Assembly: GCA_001917435.1 (NCBI GenBank)
Contig: MNEA01000151.1
Location: forward strand, 1 to 64,000
Direction: 5' to 3'
Length of the DNA: 64,000 bases
From: Acidobacteria bacterium 13_2_20CM_2_57_6
Lineage (GTDB): Bacteria; Acidobacteriota; Terriglobia; Acidiferrales; UBA7541
The notes below the pieces were generated by a model. That model had not been told where the DNA came from, did no database searches, and saw only the letters and a list, made by a program, of their open reading frames with translations. The translations under genes were made by a program, and so were the position numbers. Shown here one piece after another: positions 6,070-62,780 of the stretch. Numbering within the stretch: the first letter of the stretch is position 1; each line of letters opens with the position of its first letter.

Positions 6070-6080
6070 AGGAGCCAAAA

Positions 6081-7416: not shown

Positions 7417-7455
7417 TCTTCCTCCTGCGGTCGTCACTCCGGGGCTTAAAGATTT

Positions 7456-9044: not shown

Positions 9045-9082
9045 ACCAAATCCGTCCCTCGGTTCGCGCCGCCGGCTGCATC

Positions 9083-12247: not shown

Positions 12248-12306
12248 GTCAGCAGTCTCCTGGCAAAAGGAAGCTTTCCCAAAGATTGCTGAGTATATCC
12301 TAGGCG

Positions 12307-12346
12307 CCTGACAAAACCGCCCGGCTCTTTCGAACCGGGCGTCAGG
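12307..12346 (-). terminator. Hairpin terminator downstream of APC permease
   Basis: Inner stem CGCCCGG/CCGGGCG at 12318-12341 with a 10-base loop, enclosed by a second pairing CCTGAC/GTCAGG at 12307-12346. Read on the minus strand the inner stem is followed by GTTTTG. It lies between the permease gene end and the promoter region of the BNR gene. Confidence 0.65.
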
Positions 12347-12369
12347 GAATAGTTCAGATGAAGAATCTC

Positions 12370-35356: not shown

Positions 35357-35449
35357 AACACTGCACTTCATTCGAATCAATTGCAATTGAATATGTTTTG
35401 CGGGGATGCCATAGACAAGCTATCCTCTCGGCCACTGGGAGATCCCTTG

Positions 35450-42566: not shown

Positions 42567-42647
42567 TTTTCCATCACGCGAATATCCATGGATCGACCAA
42601 GACCCCATAAACCTAGCTTCTACTTTATCGCCGAGGAATCCGCCGAT

Positions 42648-46667: not shown

Positions 46668-47585
46668 TCAAGGTGCCTTCTTGGTTCGGGACGGCATGCG
46701 GTTGCTAAGAAGTTCGATAGCTTGTTCCAGTCGTTGACGCCGCTTCCAGAAATCGCCCCAGAGGTCACCCTTGTCCTTTAGGCGCGCAAACACTGTTTCT
46801 ATGTTCAACGTTTCGGGGCGCAAACTAGGCCGCAATTCGCGGGGCAAAAGGGGAGCGGAAACCGGCGCTTGAGGGAAAGCGCGCACGGAATACGCCGCAG
46901 CCAGTGGCCGGCCGTGGGCATTTTGCTGAACGTCGATCAGCACGCGGCCCGCGGGCCGTTTCGCAACGATGCGTTCGCTGGTCACGAGATTAGCGTGCTC
47001 GGCGGTCACCGTTCGCGCGATAATCTCACCGAAGGTACGCAACTGCTCGTAGGTGTAAATCGGCTCGACCGGCAGGTAGATGTGAATTCCCGTTGCGCCT
47101 GAAGTTTTCAGGAAGCTCGCCAAACGCAATTCTTCCAACTTTTCGTAAAGAGCTCGAGCGATGGTCACGACCGCCGAGAATTCCGTGCCATCCGAGGGAT
47201 CCAAATCAAAAAAGAAGTAGTCGGGATGATCGAGATCGTCATAACGATTGGACCATGGGTTGTGATCGATACAACCGAGGCCCGTCAAGAACAGCAGGGA
47301 AGCGCGGTCATTGGCCGTGGCGTATTGAATAACCTCACCGCGATGTTCGGAATCCACCGGAACCGTCTTGAACCATTCCGGCAAACCTTCGCGCACGTCC
47401 TTCTGAAAAAAAGCTTGCCCTTTGATTCCGTCGGGGTAGCGTCGCAAAACCAAAGCTCGATCGCGTAGAAAAGGCAAGATGAAATCCGCCATGCGGTAGT
47501 AGTAGGCCAGCAGATTCCGTTTCGTGTAGCCGGACTCCGGAAAATACACTTTGTTCAGGTTGCTGAGGCGCAGCCGTTTGCGCAA
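46668..47585 (-). CDS. ligD: LigD polymerase/primase domain (C-terminal part of frameshifted ligD)
   Basis: AEP-type polymerase domain of bacterial NHEJ ligase D, about 305 aa. Landmarks are RLRLSNLNKVYFPESGYTKRNLLAYYYRMADFILPFLRDRALVLRRYPDG, FFFDLDPSDG (catalytic Asp pair), FLKTSGATGIHIYLPV, and RVLIDVQQNAHGRPLAAAYSVRAFPQAPVSAPL (third Asp). It ends with the usual helical tail. The track ORF opens at 47738, but residues before about 47600 are out-of-frame ligase sequence. The in-frame TTG at 47585 is the likely restart if the domain is made separately. Fills in gaps at broken DNA ends, including with ribonucleotides. Confidence 0.85.
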   Translation of the reverse strand: MRKRLRLSNLNKVYFPESGYTKRNLLAYYYRMADFILPFLRDRALVLRRYPDGIKGQAFFQKDVREGLPEWFKTVPVDSEHRGEVIQYATANDRASLLFLTGLGCIDHNPWSNRYDDLDHPDYFFFDLDPSDGTEFSAVVTIARALYEKLEELRLASFLKTSGATGIHIYLPVEPIYTYEQLRTFGEIIARTVTAEHANLVTSERIVAKRPAGRVLIDVQQNAHGRPLAAAYSVRAFPQAPVSAPLLPRELRPSLRPETLNIETVFARLKDKGDLWGDFWKRRQRLEQAIELLSNRMPSRTKKAP

Positions 47586-49228
47586 TCCGTAGAACGCGCA
47601 TCCTCGCGGAGCGCGAGGAAGACGGGATGGCGCAGGGAATGCTCCTCCGTCCACCCGCTGAACTTGACCCGCGCAACCAGAGTCGGAGAAACCCACCATG
47701 GCTTTTCGTTGGTTTCGGGCACGGCATCGAAAGGACAAGTGGACGCTGAAAGTTCTTTCAACCTACTGCTCAATTCCTTCAGCTTTTTCGCGTCAAATCC
47801 ACTGCCGACGTGCCCTATGAATCGAAGTGTTTTGCCGTGATACAAGCCCAGCAGCATGGAACCAAAGGGAAGAGCGGACGTGCGAGCCTCTGTCCAGCCA
47901 CCGACCACGGCGTCCACCGTCATGGTAATCTTCAGCTTCACCCAATGCGGGCTGCGATCGGAAACGTACGGGCTGTCGGCTCGCTTTGCGACAATCCCTT
48001 CCAGGCCATTTTGTTCTGCCAGCGCGAACAACTCTTTTCCCTGCTCCAACTGATGGTCCGCATATCGAAATCGTTCGGTCGTGAAAAGCAAGCGTTCGAG
48101 GAGCTGCTTGCGCTCGAGGAGCGGAGCTTCGCGAAGGTCGTATCCGTCGCAGTAAAGAAGATCGAAGGCAAAGTAAACGACGGGAATCTGCGCGACCAGG
48201 TTCTCACTGGGGGCCCGCACGTGCATGCGTTCCTGCAAACGCTCGAAGTTGCTGTGGCCTTGGGCGTCCAGAGCCACGATCTCTCCGTCAAGAATGGCCT
48301 CGCGGGCGGCCAAAGTCTCCGGAAGAGAGGCTAGTTCCGGATAGCGCTGCGCGATGTCAACTCCGTTGCGAGAGCGCAGGGTCAAAGCGCCATTTTCGAT
48401 TCGTGCCAGCGCGCGCACGCCGTCCCATTTGATCTCAAAGAGCCAGTGCGGATCGGAAAAAGGTCGGTCGGCGAGCGTCGCCAGCATGGGTTCCACGCGA
48501 GAGGGCATTGGTCCCTTCCGTGCGCTTTGCACCTCAGCCGCTTGAATTGGGATTGGCTGGCGTTTGGGCGGCAGCTCCTCCTTAATCTCTTCTATCGTGC
48601 GTCCCGTGAGCGCGGAACGGTCGTGCTCGTCGATGTTCCAGGAGGAATCTTCGGCGGCGTCCTTGTGTTTGATCATCAACCATTCGTTGCCTTTTTCGCT
48701 CTGTTTCAGTTTCACCAAAACAAAGCTACCCCACAATTTCTCCCCGTTTAAGCTGAACTTGATTTCTCCCTTTTCCAGTTGCTTCAGTGCGTCGAGATTG
48801 CCCTCCAAGTGAAAAGTCCCGCGGTCCCAGACCATCACCGTTCCCGCGCCGTAATTGCCTTCAGGAATTTTGCCTTCGAAGTTGCCGTAGTCCAGGGGAT
48901 GATCCTCGGTCATCACCGCCAGCCGCTTGTCGGCGTGGCTCTGGGAAGGCCCCTTGGGCACGGCCCACGACTTCAGCGTCCCATCGATGGCCAGCCGGAA
49001 ATCGTAGTGCAGCCGCGTGGCCCGGTGCTTCTGAACCACAAACGTGTCGCCATGCTCGGCCCCAGGGCGCACTTCCAACTGCGGCAGTTTTGGCTTTGGC
49101 AGGCGCGTGCGTTTGGCGGACGGGGAGGGCTTGTCCTGGACCTTGCCGGCGACAGGTTCGGGCGCGCCGGACGGCTCCGGCGTCCGGTCGAACCGTCGTT
49201 TTCGCTTGTATTCTTCCAGCTTCCCCAT
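47555..49228 (-). CDS. ligD: LigD phosphoesterase plus ATP-dependent ligase domains (N-terminal part of frameshifted ligD)
   Basis: 557 aa. The basic N-terminus is followed by the 3'-phosphoesterase domain (about 50-200: FVVQKHRATRLHYDFRLAIDG, MTEDHPLDYGNFEGKIPEGNYGAGTVMVWDRG). The ATP-dependent ligase domain follows from about 240, with nucleotidyl-lysine motif LFEIKWDGVRALARI, then AFDLLYCDGYDLREAPL, LEGIVAKRADSPY and WVKLKI, and the OB fold with GHVGSGFDAKKLKELSS. Family similarity ends near HSLRHPVFLALRED; the last 12 residues are out of frame. In PE-LIG-POL proteins the polymerase follows directly, and it is found here in another frame. Divergent from Ku, beyond an exported hydrolase gene. 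Confidence 0.9.
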   Translation of the reverse strand: MGKLEEYKRKRRFDRTPEPSGAPEPVAGKVQDKPSPSAKRTRLPKPKLPQLEVRPGAEHGDTFVVQKHRATRLHYDFRLAIDGTLKSWAVPKGPSQSHADKRLAVMTEDHPLDYGNFEGKIPEGNYGAGTVMVWDRGTFHLEGNLDALKQLEKGEIKFSLNGEKLWGSFVLVKLKQSEKGNEWLMIKHKDAAEDSSWNIDEHDRSALTGRTIEEIKEELPPKRQPIPIQAAEVQSARKGPMPSRVEPMLATLADRPFSDPHWLFEIKWDGVRALARIENGALTLRSRNGVDIAQRYPELASLPETLAAREAILDGEIVALDAQGHSNFERLQERMHVRAPSENLVAQIPVVYFAFDLLYCDGYDLREAPLLERKQLLERLLFTTERFRYADHQLEQGKELFALAEQNGLEGIVAKRADSPYVSDRSPHWVKLKITMTVDAVVGGWTEARTSALPFGSMLLGLYHGKTLRFIGHVGSGFDAKKLKELSSRLKELSASTCPFDAVPETNEKPWWVSPTLVARVKFSGWTEEHSLRHPVFLALREDARSTDCANGCASAT

Positions 49229-49251
49229 TCGCGCATTCTATCCTACGCCCC

Positions 49252-49274
49252 GGTGGCACAGGCTTCAGCCTGTG
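49252..49274. repeat. Dispersed palindrome, type GGTGGCACAGGCTTCAGCCTGTG
   Basis: Stem CACAGGC/GCCTGTG with loop TTCA, in the 60-base gap between the divergent-looking ends of ligD start and the hydrolase gene. A near copy (GGTGGCACAGGCTTTAGCCCTGTGC) is at 50479-50503, 1.2 kb away. These resemble REP-like elements scattered in acidobacterial genomes. Confidence 0.6.
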
Positions 49275-49288
49275 GTCCTCGGCACCAA

Positions 49289-50359
49289 TTATCTCGGGAA
49301 CGCGATGACCTGATACGCCTTAGCGACGTTGCCGATGACGCTGTTGGGGAAGCCCGGATCAAATTTGGCTGCGTATTTTTTCACCAGAAAATCGGACACG
49401 CTCTTCTTCGCCTCGTCGAGCGAAGCTCCTTCCGCGTAGACTGCGGCCGTCCGCTCCATCAAGTCCTGAAAATACTGTTTCCACAGCTCGAACTTTTCTT
49501 TGCCGTGCATCACGTCGCCATGCCCGCCGATGACGGCGTCGAAATCCAGCTTCTCGGCGGCGTCGAGCGTCTTGATCCAGTCATAGGGATAGCTGTCGCC
49601 CATGAAGGGCGTCCAGCCATGCAGCGAGTCGCCGGTGCACAGCACTCTTTCCTTGGGAAGAAATACGAAGATGTCACCGTTGGTGTGGGCTAGCCCGAGC
49701 CAAAGAATCTCCACCGTGCGCGATTTGCGGTGCAGAATCAGGCTGTGATCGAACGTCATCGTCGGCAGAGTCACCTCGATGAGCTTTAGTTCGGCGAAAT
49801 ACGCTTCCGCCTGGCGAAGGTTTTCTTGAATGGCGGTCTTCTGTTCAGCGTTGGAAGCCTTTTCCAGATCGCTTTTCAATCTGGCGATTTCCTGCGGCAT
49901 GCTCACGATTTCGTTTTTGATACGGGGAATCCCAAGCCGCTGAATGTTGGCGCGCGTGGCTTCCGAGGAGATGATCTCGACGCCGGCGGGCCACGAACTG
50001 GGATAGGCTTCATTGCCCTGGTAGTGGTCCCAGTGGAAATGCGTGTTGACGACGTACTTCACTGGCTTGGGCGTGAGCTTCTTGATTTGCTCGATTAGCG
50101 CGCGCGCCGCGGAAGGCTTGGAGTGCGTGTCGACCACGAGCACCCCGTCGTCCAGCAGGATGATCACCGCGTTGCAATTCACTTTGTAGGCGGGCTTCGC
50201 AATGGCCGCATAGATACCGTCCGCCACCGGCTTAATGTCGAACAAATCGTCGACAGCGAGGCACGCCGGGGGAACGAGCAAGAAGCAGATGAAATTAAGG
50301 AGCAAAAAGCACGTGACGGGAAGTAGCAAGAACAAATTGGCTCGCAAGCGCGTCTTCAT
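49289..50359 (-). CDS. Exported metallo-beta-lactamase-fold hydrolase
   Basis: 356 aa. Signal MKTRLRANLFLLLPVTCFLLLNFICFLL. The MBL domain carries VLVVDTHSKPSAARALIEQI, the zinc motif VVNTHFHWDHYQGNEA (HxHxDH), WLGLAHTNGDIFVFLPKERVLCTGD (further His and bridging Asp), and VIGGHGDVMHGKE (last His). An insert of about 60 residues with a coiled stretch (EIARLKSDLEKASNAEQKTAIQENL) separates the motifs. The C-terminal helical part ends KAYQVIAFPR. Similar exported MBL enzymes are broad-substrate hydrolases; a link to the repair genes around it is not implied. Start ATG 50359 is used in place of the track's 50386. Confidence 0.85.
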   Translation of the reverse strand: MKTRLRANLFLLLPVTCFLLLNFICFLLVPPACLAVDDLFDIKPVADGIYAAIAKPAYKVNCNAVIILLDDGVLVVDTHSKPSAARALIEQIKKLTPKPVKYVVNTHFHWDHYQGNEAYPSSWPAGVEIISSEATRANIQRLGIPRIKNEIVSMPQEIARLKSDLEKASNAEQKTAIQENLRQAEAYFAELKLIEVTLPTMTFDHSLILHRKSRTVEILWLGLAHTNGDIFVFLPKERVLCTGDSLHGWTPFMGDSYPYDWIKTLDAAEKLDFDAVIGGHGDVMHGKEKFELWKQYFQDLMERTAAVYAEGASLDEAKKSVSDFLVKKYAAKFDPGFPNSVIGNVAKAYQVIAFPR

Positions 50360-50728
50360 GAGCGCGTCCCCCTGTCCGCAAGGCAATGAGCGACGAATGC
50401 GCCGCGAGCCTACTACAACGGACGAGTCAATGCCAAGTGGCCCCTTGATCGCGTGGCCCCTTGATCGCGCTTTTGTTTGGTGGCACAGGCTTTAGCCCTG
50501 TGCTCTTGCTTTGGGCAGGCAGTTGTAGTGGCAGTCTGCAGAACCGTTCTCGCCTTGGCATACTGCCCCCTATCCCTCGCAACGCCTAACAGGAGGTCAT
50601 CGTTCCTTCACGGCTATACCATTCCTCTTTCGCCGCTTTTTCGATGGCGCCCTTGCTTCTTGATTGGCGCGCGGCTAATCTAAAACCTCATGCGCTATCC
50701 CTAGCCTGTGTACCAAAGGAGTGTCGAC
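50360..50728. other. Intergenic region between MBL hydrolase and Ku genes
   Basis: 369 bases holding the divergent promoters. Direct repetition of GTGGCCCCTTGATCGCG near 50439-50470 (GTGGCCCCTTGATCGCGTGGCCCCTTGATCGCG) and the palindrome at 50479-50503 are the visible structure. The 68-codon ORF at 50477-50683 has no ribosome site or recognisable product and is not called. Confidence 0.5.
50479..50503. repeat. Dispersed palindrome, second copy
   Basis: GGTGGCACAGGCTTTAGCCCTGTGC: stem GCACAGG/CCTGTGC, nearly identical to the element at 49252-49274 with a T for C change in the loop. Confidence 0.6.
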
Positions 50729-51601
50729 ATGGCCACGACCGTTTGGAAAGGCCACCTCACGTTTGGCTTAATTTCGATGCCCGTCCGCATGACTACGGCG
50801 GCCCGCGGTGAACGAATCAGCTTCAACCAGCTCCACAAAGAGTGCCATTCGCGCCTCAAGCAGCCCTTGTTTTGTCCCGTTTGCAACCGCAACGTGGAAC
50901 GGTCCGAAATTGTAAAGGGCTACGAATACGAAAAGGATCAGTACGTGCTCTTCAGCGAAGAAGAGCTCGACAAAATCGAGCCTCCCTCGGCGCGCGTTAT
51001 GGAAATCCTGGAGTTCGTGAAGCTGGATGAAATGGATCCGCTGTATTTCGATGCCTCTTATTACGTCGCCCCCGAGGACGCCGGCGTCAAGGCTTATCAA
51101 CTGCTCATGACAGCCATGCAAGAGTCAGGCTACGGGGCCATCGCAAAGCTCACCATGCATCAGCGTGAACACATCGTGATTGTCCGGCCGGGGACCAAGG
51201 GCATGACACTGCACACGATGTTCTATTCCAATGAGATACGCGCTGCCGAATCCGTTCCGACCGATAAGATTGAAGTGAAAGAGCAAGAGAGAAAGCTCGC
51301 GCGACAACTCATTGAGAGTCTTGCCGCTCCTTTCGAGCCGCAAAAATACCGCGACGAGTATCAGGAAAATGTGCGCGCGATGATCGCTGCAAAACTCAAG
51401 GGCCAGGAAGTAACCGAAGTGGCCCAGCCGCACATGGCTCCCGTGATCGATCTGATGGAAGCCCTCAAGAAGAGCCTCGCGGAAAAACAGGCTCCGCCTG
51501 CTGCGGCGGCGGGACCGGTGCCGGTGGGAAAAAAGCCGCCCGCGCGAGCGGTGGAAGCCATTGCAACAGTGCAAAAGAAGGGAAAGAAGGTCGCCGGTTA
51601 A
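50729..51601 (+). CDS. ku: Ku protein, DNA end-binding factor of bacterial NHEJ
   Basis: 290 aa. Begins MATTVWKGHLTFGLISMPVRMTTAARGERISFNQLHKECHSRLKQPLFCPVCNRNV, the invariant opening of bacterial Ku, then EIVKGYEYEKDQYVLFSEEELDKIEPPSARVMEILEFVKLDEMDPLYFDASYYVAPE. The C-terminal tail is Pro/Ala-rich and ends with basic residues (VQKKGKKVAG), typical of the extended tails that contact DNA and LigD. AAAGGAG is 7 bases before the ATG at 50729. It should form a homodimeric ring on DNA ends and recruit LigD, which is encoded just upstream on the other strand. Confidence 0.95.
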   Translation: MATTVWKGHLTFGLISMPVRMTTAARGERISFNQLHKECHSRLKQPLFCPVCNRNVERSEIVKGYEYEKDQYVLFSEEELDKIEPPSARVMEILEFVKLDEMDPLYFDASYYVAPEDAGVKAYQLLMTAMQESGYGAIAKLTMHQREHIVIVRPGTKGMTLHTMFYSNEIRAAESVPTDKIEVKEQERKLARQLIESLAAPFEPQKYRDEYQENVRAMIAAKLKGQEVTEVAQPHMAPVIDLMEALKKSLAEKQAPPAAAAGPVPVGKKPPARAVEAIATVQKKGKKVAG

Positions 51602-51622
51602 ATTTTCCGGCCATACCATTTG

Positions 51623-52501
51623 ATGGGCCCGACGGACAGATTCAGCCCCGACGAAGTCCAGCGCATTTTGGGCCTCACGGAAAAGCAGCTGGATTATTGG
51701 GAACGGTTGCGCCTCGTTTCTCCGCAAAAAGAGCAGGGAATTCGCTCCTACGACTTCCGCGACTTAATCGGTTTGCGCACAGTGAAGCAGCTCGTTGAAA
51801 ACGGCGTGCCGGCAAACCGGCTGCGGCGCGCACTCGCCGCGCTGCGCGAAAAGCTTGCCCACGCGGAGGCTCCGCTTTCGGAGTTGCGAGTCCTCTCGGA
51901 CGGAGGAACGGTGATCGTCGAACGCGGCGGCACCAGGCTGGAGCCACTGTCCGGGCAGTTCGTGCTGAACTTCGAGACCCGCGAATTGAACGAAACCGTG
52001 CGTGTCATGACGGGACGCAGCGCCGACGAATGGCTTGCTGTTGCGCTCGAATACGAAGCCGAAGGGAAAAACAGGGCGCAAGCCATCGATGCTTATGAGC
52101 GGGCGTTTTGCGTTGATCCGGCACGGCCAGACGCGCTGATCAATTGCGGCACGCTTTACTACGAAGACGGAAACCTGGAGAAAGCTTCGGAATATTTCCG
52201 CCAGGCGCTGGTGCTCGACCCGGAAAACGCATTGGCGCATTTCAATCTGGGCAGCGTGCTGGATGAAACCGGACATGTAGATGCTGCGCGCCAGCACCTG
52301 CGGCAAGCCGTCCGGCTGAATCCCATCTATCCGGACGCGCATTACAACCTGGCGTTCGTGTGCGAAAAACTAAAGGCGTATACCGAAGCGAAGCAACACT
52401 GGCAGGCGTATGTGAGGTTGGACCCCACGGGTCCCTGGGCGAGTTATGCGCGCCAGCGATGCGCTTCCTCCAAGGCCACAAAGTCGGCTGGAACATCATA
52501 A
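51623..52501 (+). CDS. MerR-type DNA-binding protein fused to TPR repeats
   Basis: 292 aa. A MerR helix-turn-helix occupies about 8-75 (FSPDEVQRILGLTEKQLDYWERLRLVSPQKEQGIRSYDFRDLIGLRTVKQLVENGVPANRLRRALAALREKL). A beta-rich linker leads to a TPR array from about 130 (DEWLAVALEYEAEGKNRAQAIDAYERAFCVDPARPDALINCGTLYYEDGNLEKASEYFRQALVLDPENALAHFNLGSVLDETG). It lies 21 bases after ku on the same strand and is likely co-transcribed. No effector-binding domain of usual MerR regulators is present; the TPRs probably mediate protein contacts. ATG 51623 is preferred to the TTG at 51620. Confidence 0.85.
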   Translation: MGPTDRFSPDEVQRILGLTEKQLDYWERLRLVSPQKEQGIRSYDFRDLIGLRTVKQLVENGVPANRLRRALAALREKLAHAEAPLSELRVLSDGGTVIVERGGTRLEPLSGQFVLNFETRELNETVRVMTGRSADEWLAVALEYEAEGKNRAQAIDAYERAFCVDPARPDALINCGTLYYEDGNLEKASEYFRQALVLDPENALAHFNLGSVLDETGHVDAARQHLRQAVRLNPIYPDAHYNLAFVCEKLKAYTEAKQHWQAYVRLDPTGPWASYARQRCASSKATKSAGTS

Positions 52502-52868: not shown

Positions 52869-53090
52869 GTCTGCTCAACATCCTAGAACTCCTCCGCGGG
52901 CAACGGCGCGACGGAAAAAGCCGGCGAATCTGTTCATGAAATCCTCCTCAAAGTCAGTGTGATGCACCGCCTCAACGAAATATCGTGCCGTTTCATTGGG
53001 AGCAGGGGTTTTTGCAAGGCAAATGATACTTTTAACTATTCAAACTTGATAGGGAGCGCGGCAAAATCGCTTTCTGCCGCCACGAACCAA

Positions 53091-54008
53091 ATGACAGATG
53101 TTCGTTCGCGCATCACGACTTGGAGCAAGGCAGGTTTCATTCTGCTTTCCTCTCGCCATTTTCTTTGCGTGGGAACTGCCTCAGTATTCTTTGCTGCTTG
53201 CGCGTTAGTATTACCGGCCAGCGCGCAGAATACGAAATCTCCGGCCAGAAAAAAACAGACGGGACATTCTGCTGCTGAGGATGGCCGGAAAACGTTTGAA
53301 TCCGTTTGTGCCACATGCCATGGCTTGGATAGGCGCGGTAGCGAACGCGGGCCCAATATTGCCACACGTGCCGAAGTCCAACAGTTGTCCGACGAGGAAA
53401 CGCTGCACGTCCTGCAGACAGGAAAACCGGTGGCGGGGATGCCGGCGTTCGCTGTGCTGGGCGCACCGAAGATCAACGCGCTGATGGCCTACTTGCGAGT
53501 TCTACAGGGTGGGGGCGAAGCTTTTCCTACTCTGGGAGACGCGCAACGCGGCAAATTGCTTTTCTTTGGAAAGGCGCGTTGCGCGGACTGTCATATGATC
53601 AGCGGCTTAGGCGGATTTGTCGGAGCCGATCTGTCTTCCTACGGTTCGAACAGTTCCGCGAAGGAAATTCGAACTGCGATCACCGATCCCAACAAGGATC
53701 TGGAACCGCGGGAAAGAACTATGCTCGTGACCACGCGCGAAGGTCGCCAATTCACGGGTGTCGCGCGCAACGAAGATAATTTTTCACTGCAGTTGCTGTC
53801 GCTGGGAGGAACTTTTTATCTGTTCTCGAAGAAGGACCTCGAGCATTTCGAATATCTGCCAAAATCCATTATGCCATCAGACTATGGCTCCGTGCTGAGC
53901 GCCACAGAACTGGATGACCTGGTGAGCTATCTCGTCCGCGCCGCTCGCGCGGCAAAGAAAGAGCCAGCAGCCAGAACGAAATCGGATATCGAGGAAGAGG
54001 AGAACTGA
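53091..54008 (+). CDS. Exported diheme c-type cytochrome with PVC-type heme-binding C-terminus
   Basis: 305 aa from ATG 53091; the track start at 52959 adds 44 residues with no signal character. A membrane segment (TASVFFAACALVLPASAQ) is followed by a cytochrome c domain with heme site SVCATCHGLD and candidate axial Met in AGMPAFAVL. A second site is ARCADCHMIS, and the remaining part (TDPNKDLEPRERTMLVTTREGRQFTGVARNEDNFSLQLLSLGGTFYLFSKKDLEHFEYLPKSIMPSDYG) resembles the heme-binding region of large planctomycete/verrucomicrobial dehydrogenases (TIGR02603-like). It probably carries electrons for a periplasmic dehydrogenase whose gene is not adjacent. Confidence 0.83.
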   Translation: MTDVRSRITTWSKAGFILLSSRHFLCVGTASVFFAACALVLPASAQNTKSPARKKQTGHSAAEDGRKTFESVCATCHGLDRRGSERGPNIATRAEVQQLSDEETLHVLQTGKPVAGMPAFAVLGAPKINALMAYLRVLQGGGEAFPTLGDAQRGKLLFFGKARCADCHMISGLGGFVGADLSSYGSNSSAKEIRTAITDPNKDLEPRERTMLVTTREGRQFTGVARNEDNFSLQLLSLGGTFYLFSKKDLEHFEYLPKSIMPSDYGSVLSATELDDLVSYLVRAARAAKKEPAARTKSDIEEEEN

Positions 54009-54069: not shown

Positions 54070-55305
54070 TCAGCGAATAGGCCGGTTGCGCACAGCAATG
54101 AGGGAAACCTGCTCCAGGTCTGGGTAATGGCCTTCTTCATCGGGTTTTCGTTCGGCGGGCTGAATCTGTTGAACCGTCGTCTGTGCCGGCAGGGCCCCCT
54201 TGAAGTATTTCCCGTACACTTTTTCAAATACCGCCGATTCCGATAAATCGTCCAGGTAAACCGTCGTCGAGACAACTTGATCGAACTTCATGTCCGCCTC
54301 CTCCAAATTGTCGAGGAGGTTTCGCATCGTCTGGCGAACCTGATCCGCAGTGGCCGGGGCGTACACGCCGCCATTGGGGCCGGGAATGAATCCACTCTTC
54401 GCGGAACAGTACAGTGTGTCGCCAGCGAAAACACACGGACTCGCGGTTGGACTTGGGGGCATATTCTTCGGGCGTATTGCCCGCCGCTGGCTTAGATCGC
54501 GCACGGCAACTCCCGTGTATGCAATATGCACGCCTTCAGGCAGAGCCGACACTTCTATCGTGGCCCGCCCCGGCGTATTCCCGAATTCGAAGCGCTTGGC
54601 GTAAAGCTGATTCATGGTGCGCATCGGGATTTCGCGGGTGAGATAAGGATTCACGAAGACCATGTTGCTCAATTTGAGTCCCGCTGCCTCCAACACAGCT
54701 TTCATGCCGTCAAGCGCAAGATCCACTTGAGCGGCGGGATCCTGAGGAACTCTTCCGTTGGATGGGTCAGCGCCCGGCATCGTGGAAACGAATAACCGGT
54801 CGTGAGTGAGCATTCCTGGGGAAAAAGCATTGGTTGGTTTAAATGTGGGCGGAGAGACCGGCTGCTTTCCTTTGAGATCGCGCACGGCGACGGCATTGAT
54901 TTGCACGGCATCGTCCTGGGGTAACCGGGCAATGCCGAGCACCGCGCGGGCAGGAGGCTCCTTTGGAAAATAAGCGGCAAAGGCTTTGTTCAACTCAGCG
55001 TATTGATTCGTGTCTTTGAGATAGACCTGCACGTAAACGACATGATCCATGGTGAGTCCCGCGGCTAAGACGACGCCTTTTATATTGTCGAGGGACTGCC
55101 GGACTTGATCGTCAAAGTTTTCTGGGACGCTGCGGTCAGCGCGGAAAGGCCCCTGGCCAGAGATGTAGACGTAGTCGCCCGCGTCGACTCCGGGGGAGCC
55201 GAGCGCTGCCGCGAGTGTATTGTGCGGCTCGACGGCTCGAATCTGCGCTTGCCCGCTCGACGCGAACGACAGCACCGAGGCGGCGGACAGAAATAAAAGC
55301 TTCAT
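54070..55305 (-). CDS. Exported triple-domain Rid (RidA/YjgF) protein
   Basis: 411 aa, signal MKLLFLSAASVLSFASSGQAQ. Three consecutive Rid-like units can be seen: about 25-145 (GDYVYISGQGPFRADRSVPENFDDQVRQSLDNIKGVVLAAGL, PPARAVLGIARLPQDDAVQINAVAV), about 155-275 (RLFVSTMPGADPSNGRVPQDPAAQVDLALDGMKAVLEAAGLKLSNMVFVNPYL, PGRATIEVSALPEGVHIAYTGVAV), and about 285-405 (LYCSAKSGFIPGPNGGVYAPATADQVRQTMRNLLDNLEEA, PAQTTVQQIQPAERKPDEEGHYPDLEQVSLIAV). RidA hydrolyses enamine/imine intermediates released by PLP enzymes; its key Arg is in the ArAt/V strand, and R is present in units 1 and 2 (PARAV, PGRAT) but is Q in unit 3 (PAQTT). Start overlaps the PLP-enzyme stop (ATGA). Confidence 0.88.
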   Translation of the reverse strand: MKLLFLSAASVLSFASSGQAQIRAVEPHNTLAAALGSPGVDAGDYVYISGQGPFRADRSVPENFDDQVRQSLDNIKGVVLAAGLTMDHVVYVQVYLKDTNQYAELNKAFAAYFPKEPPARAVLGIARLPQDDAVQINAVAVRDLKGKQPVSPPTFKPTNAFSPGMLTHDRLFVSTMPGADPSNGRVPQDPAAQVDLALDGMKAVLEAAGLKLSNMVFVNPYLTREIPMRTMNQLYAKRFEFGNTPGRATIEVSALPEGVHIAYTGVAVRDLSQRRAIRPKNMPPSPTASPCVFAGDTLYCSAKSGFIPGPNGGVYAPATADQVRQTMRNLLDNLEEADMKFDQVVSTTVYLDDLSESAVFEKVYGKYFKGALPAQTTVQQIQPAERKPDEEGHYPDLEQVSLIAVRNRPIR

Positions 55306-56600
55306 GCCACATTTCCCTTGCGTGCCGAAGCTAGAATCGCCCGCAGTCGCTGTCCCACAATCATTTCTTCCTCCGGCTGGATGGTCATGGAAACCACCTC
55401 GAGGTGATTCTGCTCTTTGAGTTCCTTCGGATTCGCCTTCGGCTTATCGGCGCCTTCCTGCACTGCGGAAACCATGCTGGGATTATCAATGCTAAGCACT
55501 TCGATAACCGGATCGCCGTCGTGCAGTTTGCGCACGCATTCACTCACAGTAAAGCCCCAGGCCTGTTGGTCCCACGAAACGCGCAAGGTTGGATAGCGAT
55601 TCCCGTCGTCGGGAATGTAGATCTGAGTCTGCACACCTGGGACGGTCTCGACCAACTTGGCGATGCGATCCACCCGCGCGTGCCATTCGTCGTAGAGCTT
55701 TTTGGAATCCATCTTGAGCCAGGTTTCGATGGCCGTCAGGCAGCCGATGACTTCTTCTTTGCCGACTTTCATGGGACGGCAGACCGCACCCTCATAAGGG
55801 CAGGAATTGCGCAGGGCGGCCTCGATCAGATCCTTGCGACCCAGCAGCACGCCGCTGCATTGCGGCCCCCGTAGGCCCTTGCCTCCGGAAAAAGTGTAGA
55901 GATCGAGTTTCATTCTTGCGTAGAGCTTGATGTTGTCAATGGGTGGAATGCCTGCGGCATCGTCCAGAAGGAGTGGTACGTTGTGCTCTTTTGCGATGGC
56001 CGCCTCGCGCGCGAGCTTGTCGCCCAGATCCGTGGTGTAAATCATCGCCGTGTTGCTAGTGATCGCGCCGGCAATTTCTTCCGGCTTCTCGACGAGGATC
56101 AGTTTGGCTCCCGTTAGCCGGATGGCGTTGTCGAACGCGCTGCGGCCTCCGACCATCACGACTTCGTGCTTCAGTCCCGTGGTGTCCGGGAGTTGCCATA
56201 TCTTTTGCGGATCGCTGCCTGCCATGCATGCCGCGGTTGCCGCGGCCATGGCACCCGCAGCACCGGACGTGATTAATCCAGATTCGGCGCCGGTCAATTC
56301 CGCCAAGCGGCGTCCCACGGCGTGGTGCAATTCGACCATGTTCACAAAATGACGGCTCGCTTCGGCCTGAGCGTCTTGCACTTCTGGAAATTGCAGCGAT
56401 CCGCTCAAATAGGTCCATGTTCCGCGGCAATTGATGACCGTCTTCACCCCCAAGCGACTGTACACATTTTCTTTTGTGTCGTACCCAATCGCAGCAGCGG
56501 ATTTTTCGTACAGCTGGTGAGCCGCAACTTGGGCTAACAGCGGCGAAGCGGCCAGCATTTTCATAAATCCGCGGCGATTGGATTCCTGAGTGAAAGGCAT
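55302..56600 (-). CDS. SelA-like PLP-dependent lyase/aminotransferase with twin-arginine signal
   Basis: 432 aa. N-terminal NRRGFMKMLAASPLLAQVAAHQ is a Tat signal. The fold-type I PLP core follows: SRLGVKTVINCRGTWTYLSGSLQFPEVQ, ELTGAESGLITSGAAGAMAAATAACMAG, VPLLLDDAAGIPPIDN (PLP Asp) and LYTFSGGKGLRGPQCSGVLLGRKD with the Schiff-base Lys in SGGKG. These mark the SelA/DgaE group, which includes D-glucosaminate-6-phosphate ammonia lyase. Tat export would allow PLP to be bound before crossing the membrane. ATG 56600 has GGGAGGAA 7 bases upstream. Coupled to the Rid gene downstream. Real selenocysteine synthase is excluded by the signal peptide and context. Confidence 0.85.
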   Translation of the reverse strand: MPFTQESNRRGFMKMLAASPLLAQVAAHQLYEKSAAAIGYDTKENVYSRLGVKTVINCRGTWTYLSGSLQFPEVQDAQAEASRHFVNMVELHHAVGRRLAELTGAESGLITSGAAGAMAAATAACMAGSDPQKIWQLPDTTGLKHEVVMVGGRSAFDNAIRLTGAKLILVEKPEEIAGAITSNTAMIYTTDLGDKLAREAAIAKEHNVPLLLDDAAGIPPIDNIKLYARMKLDLYTFSGGKGLRGPQCSGVLLGRKDLIEAALRNSCPYEGAVCRPMKVGKEEVIGCLTAIETWLKMDSKKLYDEWHARVDRIAKLVETVPGVQTQIYIPDDGNRYPTLRVSWDQQAWGFTVSECVRKLHDGDPVIEVLSIDNPSMVSAVQEGADKPKANPKELKEQNHLEVVSMTIQPEEEMIVGQRLRAILASARKGNVA

Positions 56601-56625
56601 GGATTTCCTCCCGATATTCAAGCGT

Positions 56626-57357
56626 CTACTGAACGAAAATTAAGGTTCCAAAGTGTTCGGGAACGTGGTTGGGGTCCCGGTTGACTACACAAGTCGGCTG
56701 CCAGCACAGGAAGTGGCGCACGGGATCCGCGCCGAGTCCGTCGATGCGGTAAAGGTTGGCCCGCCATTTCGTCGCGGGCTTCACCGGTTTTTCACTAACC
56801 GATTTCAGTGGCACACGGGCCGCTGCGTACCACACGTGGTTATTTTCGTCGATGCGCCCCTGTCGCTGCCAGCCGGAATCCCAATTCGCGTCATAGGAGT
56901 CTTTGTTGAGATCGATGGCCAAATCGACCCAGTCGCCCGTTGGCGCGATCTCAAATTCGCGATAGTGCTTGATGTCGGTCCAATCGTCGCCCAGAAAGAA
57001 CTCGACCACGTCGCGGTCCCATAGTTTGAGGCGATCTTTGCTGTTATCCGCCGGCAGCCAGAGGTTCAGATGGTTGTAGGGAGAAATAAAAAGCAGATAC
57101 AGATCAGAGTCGGTCCAAAACCCGCGCACTTCGGTCTTGAGTTTGGGATAGTCGATCTGTTGCGTGCAATCTTTCTCGATCCAAGTGTACGCCGCGTGCG
57201 ACCATGTTTCCGAGTTCGGATTAGTATTCAGGTCTGGCGCCTTCGCGACATGCGGAATGGAAAAACTGGCCGTTGGGTTTGCAACCTCACACACCTCCCC
57301 GGCAAACGCGAGAGTCAGCGCTAGAAGCATCAATGACAGGCTCTTGGTGAATATCAT
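56626..57357 (-). CDS. Exported CBM9-like carbohydrate-binding protein
   Basis: 243 aa, signal MIFTKSLSLMLLALTLAFAGEV. The mature part matches the family-9 carbohydrate-binding module pattern: WSHAAYTWIEKDC, TEVRGFWTDSDLYLLFISPYNHLN, LKLWDRDVVEFFLGDDWTDIKHYREFEIAPTGDWVDLAIDL, WYAAARVPLKSV, KWRANLYRIDG and FLCWQPTCVVNRDPNHVPEHFGTLIFV. Stand-alone CBM9-like proteins usually bind sugars or related ligands outside the cell. Lies 3 bases from the TPR gene stop and 25 bases before the PLP gene, so it belongs to the same operon. Confidence 0.85.
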   Translation of the reverse strand: MIFTKSLSLMLLALTLAFAGEVCEVANPTASFSIPHVAKAPDLNTNPNSETWSHAAYTWIEKDCTQQIDYPKLKTEVRGFWTDSDLYLLFISPYNHLNLWLPADNSKDRLKLWDRDVVEFFLGDDWTDIKHYREFEIAPTGDWVDLAIDLNKDSYDANWDSGWQRQGRIDENNHVWYAAARVPLKSVSEKPVKPATKWRANLYRIDGLGADPVRHFLCWQPTCVVNRDPNHVPEHFGTLIFVQ

Positions 57358-57360
57358 CGG

Positions 57361-58995
57361 TTATGGGCGAGGCGCGTTTCTTAACTCCGGCGCAATTTCG
57401 TACGCCTTGTCGAATTCTGCCTCCGCCTCCGCCTCCTTTCCTTCCTGATGAAGTGCCAATGCAAGGTTGTAATGTGCTTCCGCATAGCGCGGCTTAAGGC
57501 GCACAGCCTCGATAAACTCCGCCCGCGCCGTACGAAGGTCGCCCGCTTGCAACAGTACCAATCCAAGGTTGTTGTGAGCTTCCGCGAAATTCGGATCGCG
57601 GCGTACCACTTCCCGGAAGACGTTGGCGGCGCCCGCGGTATCGTTCTTCTGGCTGAGGACCAATCCCAGTTGTATCCGGGCGTCAGTGTACTTGGGTTCG
57701 AGGCTGATGGCTTCATTTAATTCGTGAACCGCTTCATCCACATGCGCGGATTGCGCGAGCGCGAGGCCGAGATTGTAATGCGCTTCAGCTAGGTCGGGAT
57801 CGGACATCACCGCCCGCTGGAGCTCCTCGAGAGCGCGTGCGCGATCGTCCTGGCGCCAGTAGAGCAGCCCGAGACTCGAGTGGGCTTGCGCATAGTCCGG
57901 CTTCAGCTCAAGAGATTTCTCATAGGCCGCCAGGGCACGCGGAGCGTCCCCCTTGCGCTCCCAAGTTACTCCCAGATAGTAATGGCCGGTGGGGAGTTCG
58001 GGACTTTGCTCGACAGATTTTTGAAAGAGCGCCAGGGCATCGTCGAGCTTCTGCTGCTTCAGCGCTTCAACGCCTTGGAGGATAAGATATTTCGCTTGAG
58101 CCAGGCGCGCTCGGAACTCTTGCAAAGCGCTCAAATCATTGAGCTCCCTTTGTGCGGCGCCGGTTTCGCCTTGAGCATGCAACGCGATACCCAGGTTATA
58201 GTGCGCCTGTTCGAAATCAGGCTTCAGCTCGATCGCCTGGCGAAACGCCGCAATTGCGCCGGTCGTGTCGCCGCCCGCTTTAAGCTCCTTGCCGAGGTTC
58301 AGTTGCGCCTCCGGATCTTTGGGATCGATTTCGACCGCTCTGCGGAACTCAGCGAGTGCGCCAGCGTGATCGCCCTTCCGGCGCAGCGTCACGCCCAGCA
58401 GTGAGTGTGCTGGCGCCAACTTGGGATTCAGCCGCAGTGCCCGGCGAAATTCGCCCGCCGCGCCTTCCAGATTGCCGAGCTGTCCTTCGGCCAACCCCAG
58501 TTCGAGATGCAGTTCGGCGGAAGGCTTCGACTGCAGGGCCCGCCGTAACTCACCTTCGGCAGCCGATGGATTGCTCTGCTGCAAATAAATGTGCGCCAGC
58601 AGGCGGTGTGCTCCGGCGTTTGCGAAATCAAGATCGACCGCCGTGCGCAGTTCCTTCAAGGCGGCGGCCTGATCGTTTAGGTCGTACCAGGTCGCGCCTA
58701 ACGCGTAGTGCGCATCGGCCCACTTCGGTTTGAGACGCAGCGTGGTTTCGAACTCTTCAACGGCCTGCTTCGCATCGCCTTTATATTTCAGCGTGAGCGC
58801 CAGATTGTAATGCGTATCCGGGTCGTTGGGTTCCAGGTCTAGCGCTTTATGATAACTCGCAATAGCCTGGTCCCAGGATTTGTTGCGCGATAGCTCGATA
58901 GCTCGTTGACGGTAACTCTGAGCCGTTTGCGCAAGTGTTGGCGTTGAAAACGGCAGACTCAGAACTAGCAGAAACACCATTAGCCTGTAGCTCAC
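57361..58995 (-). CDS. Exported TPR-repeat protein
   Basis: 544 aa. Signal MVFLLVLSLPFSTPTLAQ after a short start (GTG 58995; ATG 58980 is an alternative). The rest is an almost uninterrupted array of about 14 tetratricopeptide repeats with the consensus YNLALxLKxKGDxxxAVxEFExxLRLKPxxAxAHYxLG. A non-TPR spacer (LNDLSALQEFRARLAQAKYLILQGVEAL) divides it near residue 280-320. It should act as a periplasmic scaffold, possibly between the TonB receptor upstream and the enzymes downstream. It follows the receptor gene on the same strand, separated by 120 bases with one strong hairpin. Confidence 0.88.
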   Translation of the reverse strand: MSYRLMVFLLVLSLPFSTPTLAQTAQSYRQRAIELSRNKSWDQAIASYHKALDLEPNDPDTHYNLALTLKYKGDAKQAVEEFETTLRLKPKWADAHYALGATWYDLNDQAAALKELRTAVDLDFANAGAHRLLAHIYLQQSNPSAAEGELRRALQSKPSAELHLELGLAEGQLGNLEGAAGEFRRALRLNPKLAPAHSLLGVTLRRKGDHAGALAEFRRAVEIDPKDPEAQLNLGKELKAGGDTTGAIAAFRQAIELKPDFEQAHYNLGIALHAQGETGAAQRELNDLSALQEFRARLAQAKYLILQGVEALKQQKLDDALALFQKSVEQSPELPTGHYYLGVTWERKGDAPRALAAYEKSLELKPDYAQAHSSLGLLYWRQDDRARALEELQRAVMSDPDLAEAHYNLGLALAQSAHVDEAVHELNEAISLEPKYTDARIQLGLVLSQKNDTAGAANVFREVVRRDPNFAEAHNNLGLVLLQAGDLRTARAEFIEAVRLKPRYAEAHYNLALALHQEGKEAEAEAEFDKAYEIAPELRNAPRP

Positions 58996-59071
58996 AAGAA
59001 TGATTCAAGAAAGTGTCCAGCCCGACCGGTCAGCTCAGTCTTGCGAAACCGCCCCAGGTGCGGGCTTGCCA

Positions 59072-59099
59072 CGGGGACAGGCATTCCAGCCTGTCCCCG
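59072..59099. repeat. Strong intergenic palindrome
   Basis: CGGGGACAGGC/GCCTGTCCCCG, an 11-bp perfect stem with loop ATTCCA, between the TonB-receptor gene and the TPR gene. No T-run follows on the minus strand, so it is unlikely to be a terminator; it may stabilise the 3' end of the receptor mRNA or be one of the dispersed REP-like elements. Confidence 0.65.
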
Positions 59100-59114
59100 A
59101 CTGCGCACATTTTA

Positions 59115-62100
59115 CTACCAGGTGAACTTCGCACTGATTTGCCCTTCGCGCGAACCGCTGCCGGTGTCTCCGAATGACCTGGTACTGGTTACCGTGCCGA
59201 ACGTGTTCATGTTGTTGTAATTGCCGTGCGGGTTACTAAAATTCGCGTGGTTGAATATATTGAAGAATTCCGCGCGAATTTCGAACCCCATGGCCTCTCT
59301 GATCATAGTCCTCTTAGAGATCCCGAAGTCTGTGACGTTGATTCCAGGGCCGTGGAAGAACTGGCGGTTTGCGTTGCCAAATCCGCCGTTTGGACCACTG
59401 GCAAACGCGTCCGGTAGGAAGAATGTATTCGGCCCATTAGGACCCGGGTTACGCGGATTTTGGGTCACGACCTTCCCCACAAGGTCGGGTACATCGGTGT
59501 TCCCACCGCCAACCAACGAGTAATCCCCGCCCTGTCTCAGCGACACGGGCAAACCACCCGAATAGCGCGTAACGCCGTTAAGGGCCCAGCCTTGCGTCAA
59601 GCGCTTCGGCAGTTTGCCGATTGCCCGGTCGAAGGGAACCGCCCAGATGTAACTCACCACGAAGTTATGGGTGATATCGAACGCCGAAAGCGAGCGGCTG
59701 AGCCGGGGGTCCAAGAAATTCACCCACTGGCCAAAGCCGGAAGAATTGTCCATCGCCTTAGCGAACGTGTACGCCGCTAGGAAGGTAAAATCCGCGGCCT
59801 TGTGTTCCACGGTTATCTGACCTGCGTTGTAGCTCGAATTGGCGATGTTGACTGTGAAGCTGTTGTTCTGGCTGAAGGCAGGTCCCAAATAGTCACGTGT
59901 ACCAGGTATGCAAGTACTGCCAGCAGGCGTCCCAAGGGGACACGGGGTGGTGAACGCCTTGGCGGGAGCGGCTACGCCAGGAGGCAAAGTGTACGTCTGG
60001 TTCTCGCCATCGCGTCCACATGTAGGCGTGGCGCCCAGTTGGTTAAGTTGCAGGCAAAGCGCGAAGTCACCGGGATTGGCGTCGTATTGCGAGATCAGCT
60101 TATGTCCTTGTGTTCCTACGTACGCCAGGGTCAGAACCGTCGATTTACTCAGCTCCCTCTGAATGGACAAATTGTAATGCTCCGCATAAGGCGGCCGATT
60201 GTGAATGTCGTAGCCCGGTGAAAACGAGATCGGCAAATAGATCGAATAGTCTAGCGTCTTATTAGCCGGGCTTCCCGGCTTCGGGAACACAAATGGGAAT
60301 CGCTGCCCCTCTGACATTCCGTTGGCGACTTCCTGGAACGGCTGGTCGAAGTTGACCGGGTTAGGCGAAACCCAATACAGCCCAAAAGGAGCATCTCCGA
60401 CCTCATAGAACAAGTTCAAGTCCTCGATCGACGTGTAGTAGACGCCGTAGGACGCTCGGATGCTGGATTTGCCAGGGCCACCGAAGATCTTGCCCGCCAT
60501 CCCATCTTTAAAGCCGGGCGAATAAGCGATGCCCAGCCTCGGAGAGAAGTTGTTATACCGGGTGGGAGCGAGTGTGCTCGGAATTCCCGGATCGCCCGGA
60601 ACCACCCATCCCAGCGGCGCAGTCGGGAACTGTGTGGACTGCAAGCCAGGCACGATGGTCTCAATCTTGCCCTGCGTGTCATACCACGGCATGCTTACTT
60701 CCCAACGCACACCAAGATTGAGGGTGAGGTTCGGCCTCACTTTGAAAGTGTCTTCAGCGAAAGCCCCGCCATAACGCGACCGTGAATCCAGGAACTGCTG
60801 GCTGCACTGGTTATAGTTTTGCGCTGCGCCGAGTAGGTAATCGGCGAAATCGTTGCCGGTTATGCTGCCGTCGAACGTGAAGTCTCCGTTCGGTGCGCAC
60901 GTATTGCGCTCATTGATCTGCAGGTAGCGGAACTCACCCCCAAACTTGATCGTGTGTCGGCCTCGCGCTTTCGAGAAAGTATCCGAGACGTGCCAGGTGT
61001 TGTTCGGCTGAAACGTTGACAGCGTATTCACGCCGAGGGAGAAGTTGTTGAAGTATATCGGTGGCACGGTCTGTGGAAATCCCGCCGGTCCCGAGGGTAT
61101 GATGCCGAGAGTTCCTGGGCCAGTAACGAAACCGAGATCCGAGAGTTTTGCGAAGCTGCTACTTGGCTCGTCCGTATGCGTAGCTGTCCGGAAGAAACTC
61201 AAACGAAATTGATTCACAGCGGTTGCACCATAATTTTTGTTGTTATTGAGGACGAACTGCTGTGCACGGCTTACCGTAGCACTGGAAAAACCTGGCACAC
61301 TGGCATCCAGAGCGTTAAAATTGTTGGAGTCGTCGAAGTGATAATAAAACGACCAGTCGCCGGTCATCTTGTTAATGAAGTCTATTCGTTGTCCATACTT
61401 GTTATCCCCAATCCTGTTCCTTTGGTTGGCGTCTGCGAAATTTCCATTTCCATCGCCAATCGGGATGTAGGGCAGAATCTTGGTCGCGGGTAAGGAAAAC
61501 GCGCTCGTCGGGATCGTAGCGTTGCTAAACACGCACTGTGTAGTGCTGGGGCAGGGATCTAGGCGAAAGCCACTCGGCTGACTGGCGTCCGGCACTTTGA
61601 TGGCCCCGTAAGGTTCCCCGTTGAAGACACAGGAAGGATCTCCCGGACATACGTAGCCCAGTCGACTGGAAAGCGTATCCGCCCAATTCAATCCGCAGGA
61701 AGCACCCCCGGGGCATGCCTGGCTGTTCACGAGTAACGGACTGCCGCTCGAATCCGCAAAGTCTGCTGCGGTGAAAGTGCCGCCTCGCTGGAGGGTCGTC
61801 GGCACCGGCACCGCACCCGTACTGGCTCCCCTGACCTCGCGAGTGCCCTGATAGTCCGTGAACCAGAAAAGCTTGTTTTTCCAGAACGGGCCTCCCACGG
61901 CGTAGCCGAACTGGTTACGCCGCAATTCCGCCTTAGTCGGGTCGAAGAAACCTCGCGCGTCGAATTTGTCGTTGCGCAAGAATTCGAACGCAGATCCGTG
62001 AAGGCCGTTGGTGCCGGACTTAGTAATCGTGTTCATCACCGCGCCGCTGAATTTTCCATACTCCGCATCAAAGCTATTGGTGATCAGCCGGAATTCCTCC

Positions 62101-62780
62101 ACGGAATCCAGATTGGGGATCAACCCGGCGCCCAGGTTGCGTCCTTCGCTCACGTCGCCGCCGTTCACCAGAAACGCGTTGGCGGTCTCCCGCTGCCCAT
62201 TTACCGACAGGTTGCCCGCATTTGGCGAGTATCCCCCGGAAACCGACCGGTCCTGCTGTATGGAGCCGGATGTTACCGGCACCACTCCCGCTTGCAGGCC
62301 CAGAAGGTCCAGGTAGCTGCGGCCATTCAACGGCAGAGAAAGCATTTTTTTCGATTCGATCACATCACCTAGCTGCGTGTTTTCTGTCTGTACTTGCACC
62401 GCGTTGGCGGAGATTTCCACCTTTTCGGTCACGCTGCCAACGTCGAGCGTGACGTCAACGTGCAATTGGTCGTTCACTTTCAAGTCGACATCCGTCGTCG
62501 AGAACGTTTGGAATCCCGGGGCAGTGGCGGTGAGTTTGTAAGTCCCTGCCGGCAACGCCAGGATTCGGTAAGTCCCGTCCGCAGCAGACACGGTTTCCCT
62601 AGTAAGATTTGTTTGCACATTGGTGGCGACAATTCGCGCGCCCGCAACCACAGCTTGCGTACGGTCGTGCACCACGCCTAGAATCGATCCGGTCACGTCC
62701 GCCCGCAAAACATTTGGACCGACAAGCATTGTTAGAACGATCAAAACAGCAAAAACTGCACGGTTAAAACGATTTTGCAT
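59115..62780 (-). CDS. TonB-dependent receptor, Oar/acidobacterial carboxypeptidase-regulatory type
   Basis: 1221 aa. Signal NRFNRAVFAVLIVLTMLVGPNVLRA, then an N-terminal CarboxypepD_reg-like beta-sandwich (VTGSILGVVHDRTQAVVAGARIVATNVQTNLTRETVSAADGTYRILALPAGTYKLTATAPGFQTF). The plug follows (ENTQLGDVIESKKMLSLPLNGRSYLDLLGLQAGV, VNGQRETANAFLVNGGDVSEG, IPNLDSVEEFRLITNSFDAEYGKFSGAVMNTITKSGTNGLHGSAFEFLRND), then a long 22-strand-type barrel ending in a C-terminal aromatic strand (SREGQISAKFTW). ATG 62780 is chosen because the track start at 62831 adds a tail before the signal. It would import a large or scarce solute, energised by TonB. Confidence 0.93.
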   Translation of the reverse strand: MQNRFNRAVFAVLIVLTMLVGPNVLRADVTGSILGVVHDRTQAVVAGARIVATNVQTNLTRETVSAADGTYRILALPAGTYKLTATAPGFQTFSTTDVDLKVNDQLHVDVTLDVGSVTEKVEISANAVQVQTENTQLGDVIESKKMLSLPLNGRSYLDLLGLQAGVVPVTSGSIQQDRSVSGGYSPNAGNLSVNGQRETANAFLVNGGDVSEGRNLGAGLIPNLDSVEEFRLITNSFDAEYGKFSGAVMNTITKSGTNGLHGSAFEFLRNDKFDARGFFDPTKAELRRNQFGYAVGGPFWKNKLFWFTDYQGTREVRGASTGAVPVPTTLQRGGTFTAADFADSSGSPLLVNSQACPGGASCGLNWADTLSSRLGYVCPGDPSCVFNGEPYGAIKVPDASQPSGFRLDPCPSTTQCVFSNATIPTSAFSLPATKILPYIPIGDGNGNFADANQRNRIGDNKYGQRIDFINKMTGDWSFYYHFDDSNNFNALDASVPGFSSATVSRAQQFVLNNNKNYGATAVNQFRLSFFRTATHTDEPSSSFAKLSDLGFVTGPGTLGIIPSGPAGFPQTVPPIYFNNFSLGVNTLSTFQPNNTWHVSDTFSKARGRHTIKFGGEFRYLQINERNTCAPNGDFTFDGSITGNDFADYLLGAAQNYNQCSQQFLDSRSRYGGAFAEDTFKVRPNLTLNLGVRWEVSMPWYDTQGKIETIVPGLQSTQFPTAPLGWVVPGDPGIPSTLAPTRYNNFSPRLGIAYSPGFKDGMAGKIFGGPGKSSIRASYGVYYTSIEDLNLFYEVGDAPFGLYWVSPNPVNFDQPFQEVANGMSEGQRFPFVFPKPGSPANKTLDYSIYLPISFSPGYDIHNRPPYAEHYNLSIQRELSKSTVLTLAYVGTQGHKLISQYDANPGDFALCLQLNQLGATPTCGRDGENQTYTLPPGVAAPAKAFTTPCPLGTPAGSTCIPGTRDYLGPAFSQNNSFTVNIANSSYNAGQITVEHKAADFTFLAAYTFAKAMDNSSGFGQWVNFLDPRLSRSLSAFDITHNFVVSYIWAVPFDRAIGKLPKRLTQGWALNGVTRYSGGLPVSLRQGGDYSLVGGGNTDVPDLVGKVVTQNPRNPGPNGPNTFFLPDAFASGPNGGFGNANRQFFHGPGINVTDFGISKRTMIREAMGFEIRAEFFNIFNHANFSNPHGNYNNMNTFGTVTSTRSFGDTGSGSREGQISAKFTW

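Follow-up and report, generated by a model that had tools for sequence, protein, structure and literature searches.

A predicted exported pair of a PLP-dependent enzyme and a triple-Rid protein in soil Acidobacteria, with a possible role in periplasmic amino-sugar deamination

Work on Rid proteins has so far treated them as protection of the cytoplasm against reactive enamines and imines. Imine hydrolysis by RidA requires the catalytic arginine, and proteins with three tandem Rid domains, the 3x-RidA class (e.g., EF_0115), have been proposed to be covalently linked trimers; neither export nor a signal peptide is mentioned for them in that work (Niehaus et al., 2015; PMC4433059). Among PLP enzymes, DGL/DgaE proteins (TIGR01437, NF047797) are cytoplasmic, act on a phosphorylated substrate and lack an export signal. 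They contain a His162/His163 loop that is described as strictly conserved in DGL. In this enzyme His163 protonates the enamine, which an H163A mutant releases, and a docked model clusters Arg301, Arg332 and Arg346 at the phosphate and places Arg226 near the carboxylate (PMC9529869). Export of PLP enzymes is also on record: PvdN and PtaA are moved by the Tat system folded with their cofactor and are active in the periplasm, where, in the part of the source that we cite, they serve siderophore tailoring and no Rid partner is noted (PMC6206403). Finally, in the chitin-oxidation pathway of Pseudoalteromonas, an amino-sugar acid is deacetylated and deaminated to KDG by a gene set that comprises OngB (deacetylase), OngC (PLP deaminase), OngD (RidA) and KdgK; the steps from deacetylase to kinase are cytoplasmic, and OngD is essential in a role that is unexplained (PMC9537276).

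The locus described here lies in a 64,000-bp stretch of DNA (hereafter the window; contig MNEA01000151.1, positions 1 to 64,000) of Acidobacteria bacterium 13_2_20CM_2_57_6, whose assembly has 169 contigs and is 81.6% complete and whose closest GTDB relatives are soil Acidobacteria MAGs (e.g., isolate gp2 AA87). Five minus-strand genes form an operon and stand in the order that the sequence-only reading had given, and each product has an export-type N-terminal signal: a TonB-dependent receptor with a carboxypeptidase-regulatory domain (59115-62780; PF25183, E 2e-174; PF13620), a TPR-repeat protein of 544 aa with a Sec-like N-terminus (57361-58995; TPR models such as PF13414), a CBM9-like protein of 243 aa (56626-57357), whose PF16011 match (E 2e-4, 21.6 bits) is under the 25-bit cut-off, a SelA/DgaE-like PLP enzyme of 432 aa with a Tat signal (55302-56600), and a triple Rid (3x-RidA) protein of 411 aa with a Sec-type signal at about residues 1-21 (54070-55305; three PF01042 domains, E 5e-58). 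The ATGA coupling claimed for the last two genes is real: PLP stop and Rid start share positions 55302-55305 on the minus strand, with a 4-bp overlap also seen in ten related loci. The PLP start at TTG 56621 chosen by the ORF finder was rejected in favor of ATG 56600, which lies behind GGAGGAA. Convergent with the Rid gene is a plus-strand gene for a cytochrome c with a TIGR02603 heme-binding domain (52959-54008; PF13442), whose true start is likely near 53091.

Several other features of the surrounding DNA were recorded. Just past the TonB receptor, at the window end, lies an ORF for a PQQ_2/BamB-like beta-propeller (L112 1910-2893; G000:C81:63909-64892). Within the window, the region 46668-51601 contains genes of NHEJ type, as judged by eye, with LigD-like polymerase and ligase ORFs (46668-47738 and 47555-49228) that overlap in different frames and a Ku-like gene at 50708-51601; the ORF at 51620-52501 fuses TPR repeats to a MerR-type HTH. 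Two further ORFs, 35381-36946 and 36822-38555, also overlap in different frames; each resembles one half of a BNR/sortilin-like repeat protein of the kind encoded at 42588-45845, and the two are possibly one frameshifted gene.

A scan of GTDB species genomes returned 80 loci, among which the neighborhood of PLP and Rid genes proved to be conserved, and the full five-gene order was limited to about ten close relatives. The five-gene row was thus rejected as a functional unit; this lineage-specific distribution places the TonB, TPR and CBM9 genes outside the conserved core, and the CBM9-like gene occurs only in the loci closest to the window. The conserved core is the PLP enzyme and the Rid protein. 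Above 70% identity, 38/39 PLP homologues have a Rid gene within 500 bp. At 50-70% identity, 28 of 40 have none in the sequence stretch examined, and a triple Rid is encoded elsewhere in 11 of the 12 searched genomes whose homologue lacks an adjacent one. In another lineage the order is reversed, with Rid before PLP, which together with the 4-bp overlaps indicates that the link between the two genes is more than inherited synteny. Among 297 Acidobacteriota, triple-Rid-like matches were found in eight genomes, four of which also have the PLP family, numbers too small to decide on co-occurrence. The two proteins very probably act together.

The AlphaFold2 model of the PLP enzyme (pLDDT 85) resembles two folds about equally, that of Cap15 from capuramycin biosynthesis (PDB 8t7j), which at a TM of 0.86 by target length is its closest solved structure, and that of DGL (7lc0); by sequence profile DGL scores slightly above Cap15 (194 versus 185 bits). 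The enzyme falls short of the DGL/DgaE family cut-offs, with 139 bits against 600 for NF047797 and 161 against 385 for TIGR01437. What it shares with DGL, besides the fold, is the Schiff-base lysine and the carboxylate arginine. Lys241 (codon 55878-55880, minus strand) aligns with the DGL lysine, which is residue 217 in PMC9529869 and 213 by chain index (the numbering of His162, His163, Arg226 and Arg301 agrees between the two), and it is invariant in 120/120 homologues; the equivalent of Arg226 is kept in 79/79 close homologues. The phosphate cluster of DGL, in contrast, is altered: the Arg301 position is Thr in 68/79 close homologues, and the exported enzymes lack the YTR and DPR motifs, which were assumed to contain Arg332 and Arg346, a comparison made by motif only because alignments to 7lc0 stop at residues 327-331.

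The His162/His163 pair was found in 0/120 exported PLP homologues, and in the window group the loop itself is deleted; the pair is present in two annotated DgaE proteins and in a cytoplasmic PLP enzyme of Aminobacter. Since the corresponding His-to-Ala mutant of DGL releases the enamine, such a loss would explain a dedicated Rid protein. A strict link between loss of the loop and an adjacent Rid was not upheld, given the Bryobacteraceae-type loci, Sinorhizobium, and Aminobacter, which has both the His pair and RidA. The association is suggestive only, and that Rid is needed because the histidines are missing is a tentative idea to which we give less than even chances. A signal-less homologue without the His pair was also observed on a conjugative plasmid of Sinorhizobium meliloti, in a cluster with aepX and a phosphocholine cytidylyltransferase gene (L148 3932-5536).

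The sequence-only reading had further claimed a twin-arginine signal on the PLP enzyme and a Sec signal on the Rid protein, and both are borne out in a curated set of homologues by our own motif and hydrophobicity tests, used here rather than SignalP. The PLP signal consists of NRRGFMK (56559-56579, minus strand) and MLAASPLLAQ, and the twin arginines followed by a hydrophobic core recur in 109/120 homologues; this signal is absent from the cytoplasmic DgaE proteins compared. The Rid N-terminus, MKLLFLSAASVLSFASSGQAQ, is Sec-like, and a Sec-type signal was found in 44 of the 47 triple-Rid homologues whose start was usable. As a background, the same scan of the same loci gave Tat-like signals for 78/85 ORFs of the PLP cluster versus 27/299 (9%) unrelated ORFs. 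The window genome encodes TatC, over cut-off, and signal sequences occur on most of the neighboring dehydrogenases, lactonases, cytochromes and RraA-like proteins (on NagB-like proteins, 0/8). From these N-termini, both the PLP enzyme and the Rid protein are predicted with high confidence to be exported. The opposite view, that the signal-like N-termini mislead and that the pair is cytoplasmic like other RidA-PLP clusters, can point to the fact that export was judged by motif and to the existence of cytoplasmic clusters of PLP enzyme, RidA and amidohydrolase, as in Aminobacter; the frequency of the twin-arginine signal over its background and in comparison with DgaE, the presence of TatC and the signals on most neighbors make it highly improbable. 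With the signals, the neighborhood and the lysine all retained, none of the losses named beforehand as grounds for abandoning the sequence-only reading has occurred.

The Rid protein has the features of the 3x-RidA class, with three PF01042 stretches in one chain, of which the first two contain the arginine and the third does not. By alignment to E. coli RidA, the catalytic-arginine position is occupied by Arg247 in domain 2 (codon 54565-54567, minus strand), which is 100% conserved; that of domain 1 is Arg120 (54946-54948, minus strand; 96% conserved), and in domain 3 Gln375 (54181-54183, minus strand) takes the place of an arginine found in 65% of relatives. Each domain of the AlphaFold2 model (pLDDT 88.9, pTM 0.88) is RidA-like, and structural matches to the whole model comprise RidA-type chains, which cover one domain, and chorismatases, which align over 365-415 columns at a TM of about 0.5. 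A chorismatase is one chain laid out like the RidA trimer. This fits the published view of 3x-RidA proteins as covalent trimers (PMC4433059). Could the protein instead be a binding or chaperone-like partner, paired with the enzyme for stability or metabolite binding rather than for imine hydrolysis? Other roles have been reported for RidA-family proteins, and domain 3 is without the catalytic arginine here, as it is in roughly one in three relatives. However, the near-invariance of the arginine in domains 1 and 2, which RidA needs for hydrolysis (PMC4433059), makes such a partner quite improbable.

Genes that recur around the pair suggest what it may act on. In 22 close loci with long flanks, a quinoprotein dehydrogenase is present in 19, a cytochrome c in 13, a cupin in 12, an SMP-30 lactonase and an RraA-like aldolase in 10 each, and MFS carriers in 7; at the window locus itself, dehydrogenase and lactonase genes are absent beside the pair (in an assembly that is incomplete, as given above). 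Other neighbors are related to amino sugars. At locus L008, the genes next to the operon encode AgaR, a LacC-like kinase, a tagatose-bisphosphate aldolase and an enzyme with a SIS domain that is related to aminosugar-phosphate deaminases, and NagB-like genes occur near modules in other lineages. On plasmid pACIX902 of Granulicella tundricola, the row comprises a carboxypeptidase-regulatory-domain protein, RraA, a PLP enzyme, a RidA that bears a Tat-type signal, another PLP enzyme, an amidohydrolase/deacetylase, a lactonase and a BBE-domain protein.

The window genome also contains a second exported Rid + PLP pair, on contig C65 (L111, G000:C65:8000-27999, 5517-13732). This module encodes a cytochrome c, an RraA-like protein, a quinoprotein dehydrogenase, a single-domain Tat-Rid, a second Tat-PLP enzyme, an MFS carrier whose closest family is that of galactonate transporters, and a kinase most similar to 2-keto-3-deoxygluconate/galactonate kinases. 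A KDG-type kinase was rejected as a constant neighbor of the pair, as it adjoins it only in the window genome and lies elsewhere in relatives; in one related lineage it adjoins a KDPG aldolase and NagB. The model nearest to the C65 dehydrogenase (L111 7686-9362) is TIGR04528, "acido-empty-quinoprotein", a name that raises the doubt of a quinoprotein without PQQ; this doubt is reduced by PqqC and PqqE, two proteins of PQQ synthesis that the genome encodes, both over cut-off. RraA-like aldolases with signal sequences and a retained GG-RD motif recur near modules (L111 6608-7390, L011 14495-15277, L145 6209-6949), and these proteins might cleave the keto-deoxy acid in the periplasm.

From these elements, a periplasmic module for the oxidation and deamination of amino sugars can be proposed, and as a whole we favor it modestly. 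An amino sugar would enter through the TonB receptor and be oxidized in the periplasm by the quinoprotein dehydrogenase, feeding cytochrome c; the lactonase would then open the lactone to an amino-aldonate, i.e., a 2-amino-3-hydroxy sugar acid. These oxidation and lactone-opening steps are drawn from the neighbors in relatives and from the second locus of the same genome. The PLP enzyme, which its signal suggests is exported by Tat folded with its cofactor, would eliminate the 3-hydroxyl group, leading to ammonia loss, and is predicted to release a reactive enamine because the histidine that donates a proton in DGL is missing from it. The 3x-Rid that is co-expressed with it and likewise predicted to be exported, a putative single-chain pseudo-trimer, would turn the enamine over to a 2-keto-3-deoxy-aldonate, which an MFS carrier may import and a KDG-type kinase phosphorylate, as the genes beside the second pair suggest. 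The assignment of the PLP enzyme as an ammonia-lyase on an unphosphorylated amino-sugar acid, based on sequence comparison and gene context, has in our view a somewhat better than even chance: it gains support from the quinoprotein dehydrogenase, lactonase, NagB/AgaR-type, KDG-type kinase and deacetylase neighbors, as well as from the loss of the phosphate-binding arginines. Of the substrates guessed earlier, the amino-sugar acid has thereby gained ground, and nothing favors D-amino acids in particular. The periplasmic route in its complete form, from quinoprotein oxidation and lactone opening to a His-less lyase that hands a free enamine to a pseudo-trimeric Rid as its obligate partner, is more speculative and, on balance, doubtful.

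The main competing explanation takes the exported PLP enzyme for an oxidase or oxygenase of the Cap15/PvdN type that depends on O2 and acts on a beta-hydroxy-alpha-amino acid, in which case Rid would hydrolyze the imine from oxidative deamination or have an accessory role. Cap15, the top structural match, does act on a beta-hydroxy-alpha-amino acid, and PvdN, classed with it, is a Tat-exported periplasmic PLP enzyme. Cap15 itself is an O2-dependent decarboxylating enzyme of antibiotic biosynthesis (PMC7497351), in which it differs from the proposed lyase. The sequence profile, however, lies slightly nearer DGL, and the KDG-type kinase, MFS, lactonase and deacetylase neighbors fit a lyase product, so that this explanation appears rather unlikely. 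A further alternative is that the exported enzyme works on other amino acids as a lyase, aldolase or racemase, its substrates being, for instance, D-amino acids or hydroxy-amino acids derived from peptidoglycan or protein, and that Rid serves as a general guard in the periplasm. In its favor, members of the SelA-like superfamily catalyze diverse reactions, and neither TonB receptors nor cupins nor RraA-like proteins are specific to sugars. We consider this alternative unlikely, given that sugar-oxidation and amino-sugar genes recur and that the neighbor family scans that were run named no amino-acid enzyme.

Set against the described systems, the proposed amino-sugar module resembles the Ong pathway by description, with a PLP enzyme, a RidA and a KDG kinase, and differs from it in that deamination is predicted to take place in the periplasm. 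Parts of an Ong-type gene set occur at C65 (Rid, PLP, MFS and KDG-type kinase) and in Granulicella (deacetylase family, PLP and RidA), with no single full cluster. The window Rid protein shares the three tandem domains of published 3x-RidA proteins and adds to them a Sec-type signal and a tie to a PLP enzyme with an export signal of its own. In the open-access literature, neither a Rid protein that is exported nor such a protein paired with an exported PLP enzyme was found described; 3x-RidA proteins and Tat-exported PLP enzymes were each already known.

If true, an exported Rid acting with an exported PLP lyase would mean that such enamine and imine chemistry has moved outside the inner membrane. 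The pair would also offer a natural experiment on whether Rid can act as a genuine partner in catalysis, since the lyase is without the very residue that, when mutated in DGL, leads to release of the enamine; in the more speculative reading, Rid would be an obligate periplasmic catalytic partner instead of cytoplasmic damage control. The pair might further hint at the role of OngD, the RidA of the chitin-oxidation pathway. For the bacteria themselves, it would suggest a way in which soil Acidobacteria may draw on the amino sugars of chitin, peptidoglycan or glycans while the amino group is kept outside the cell.
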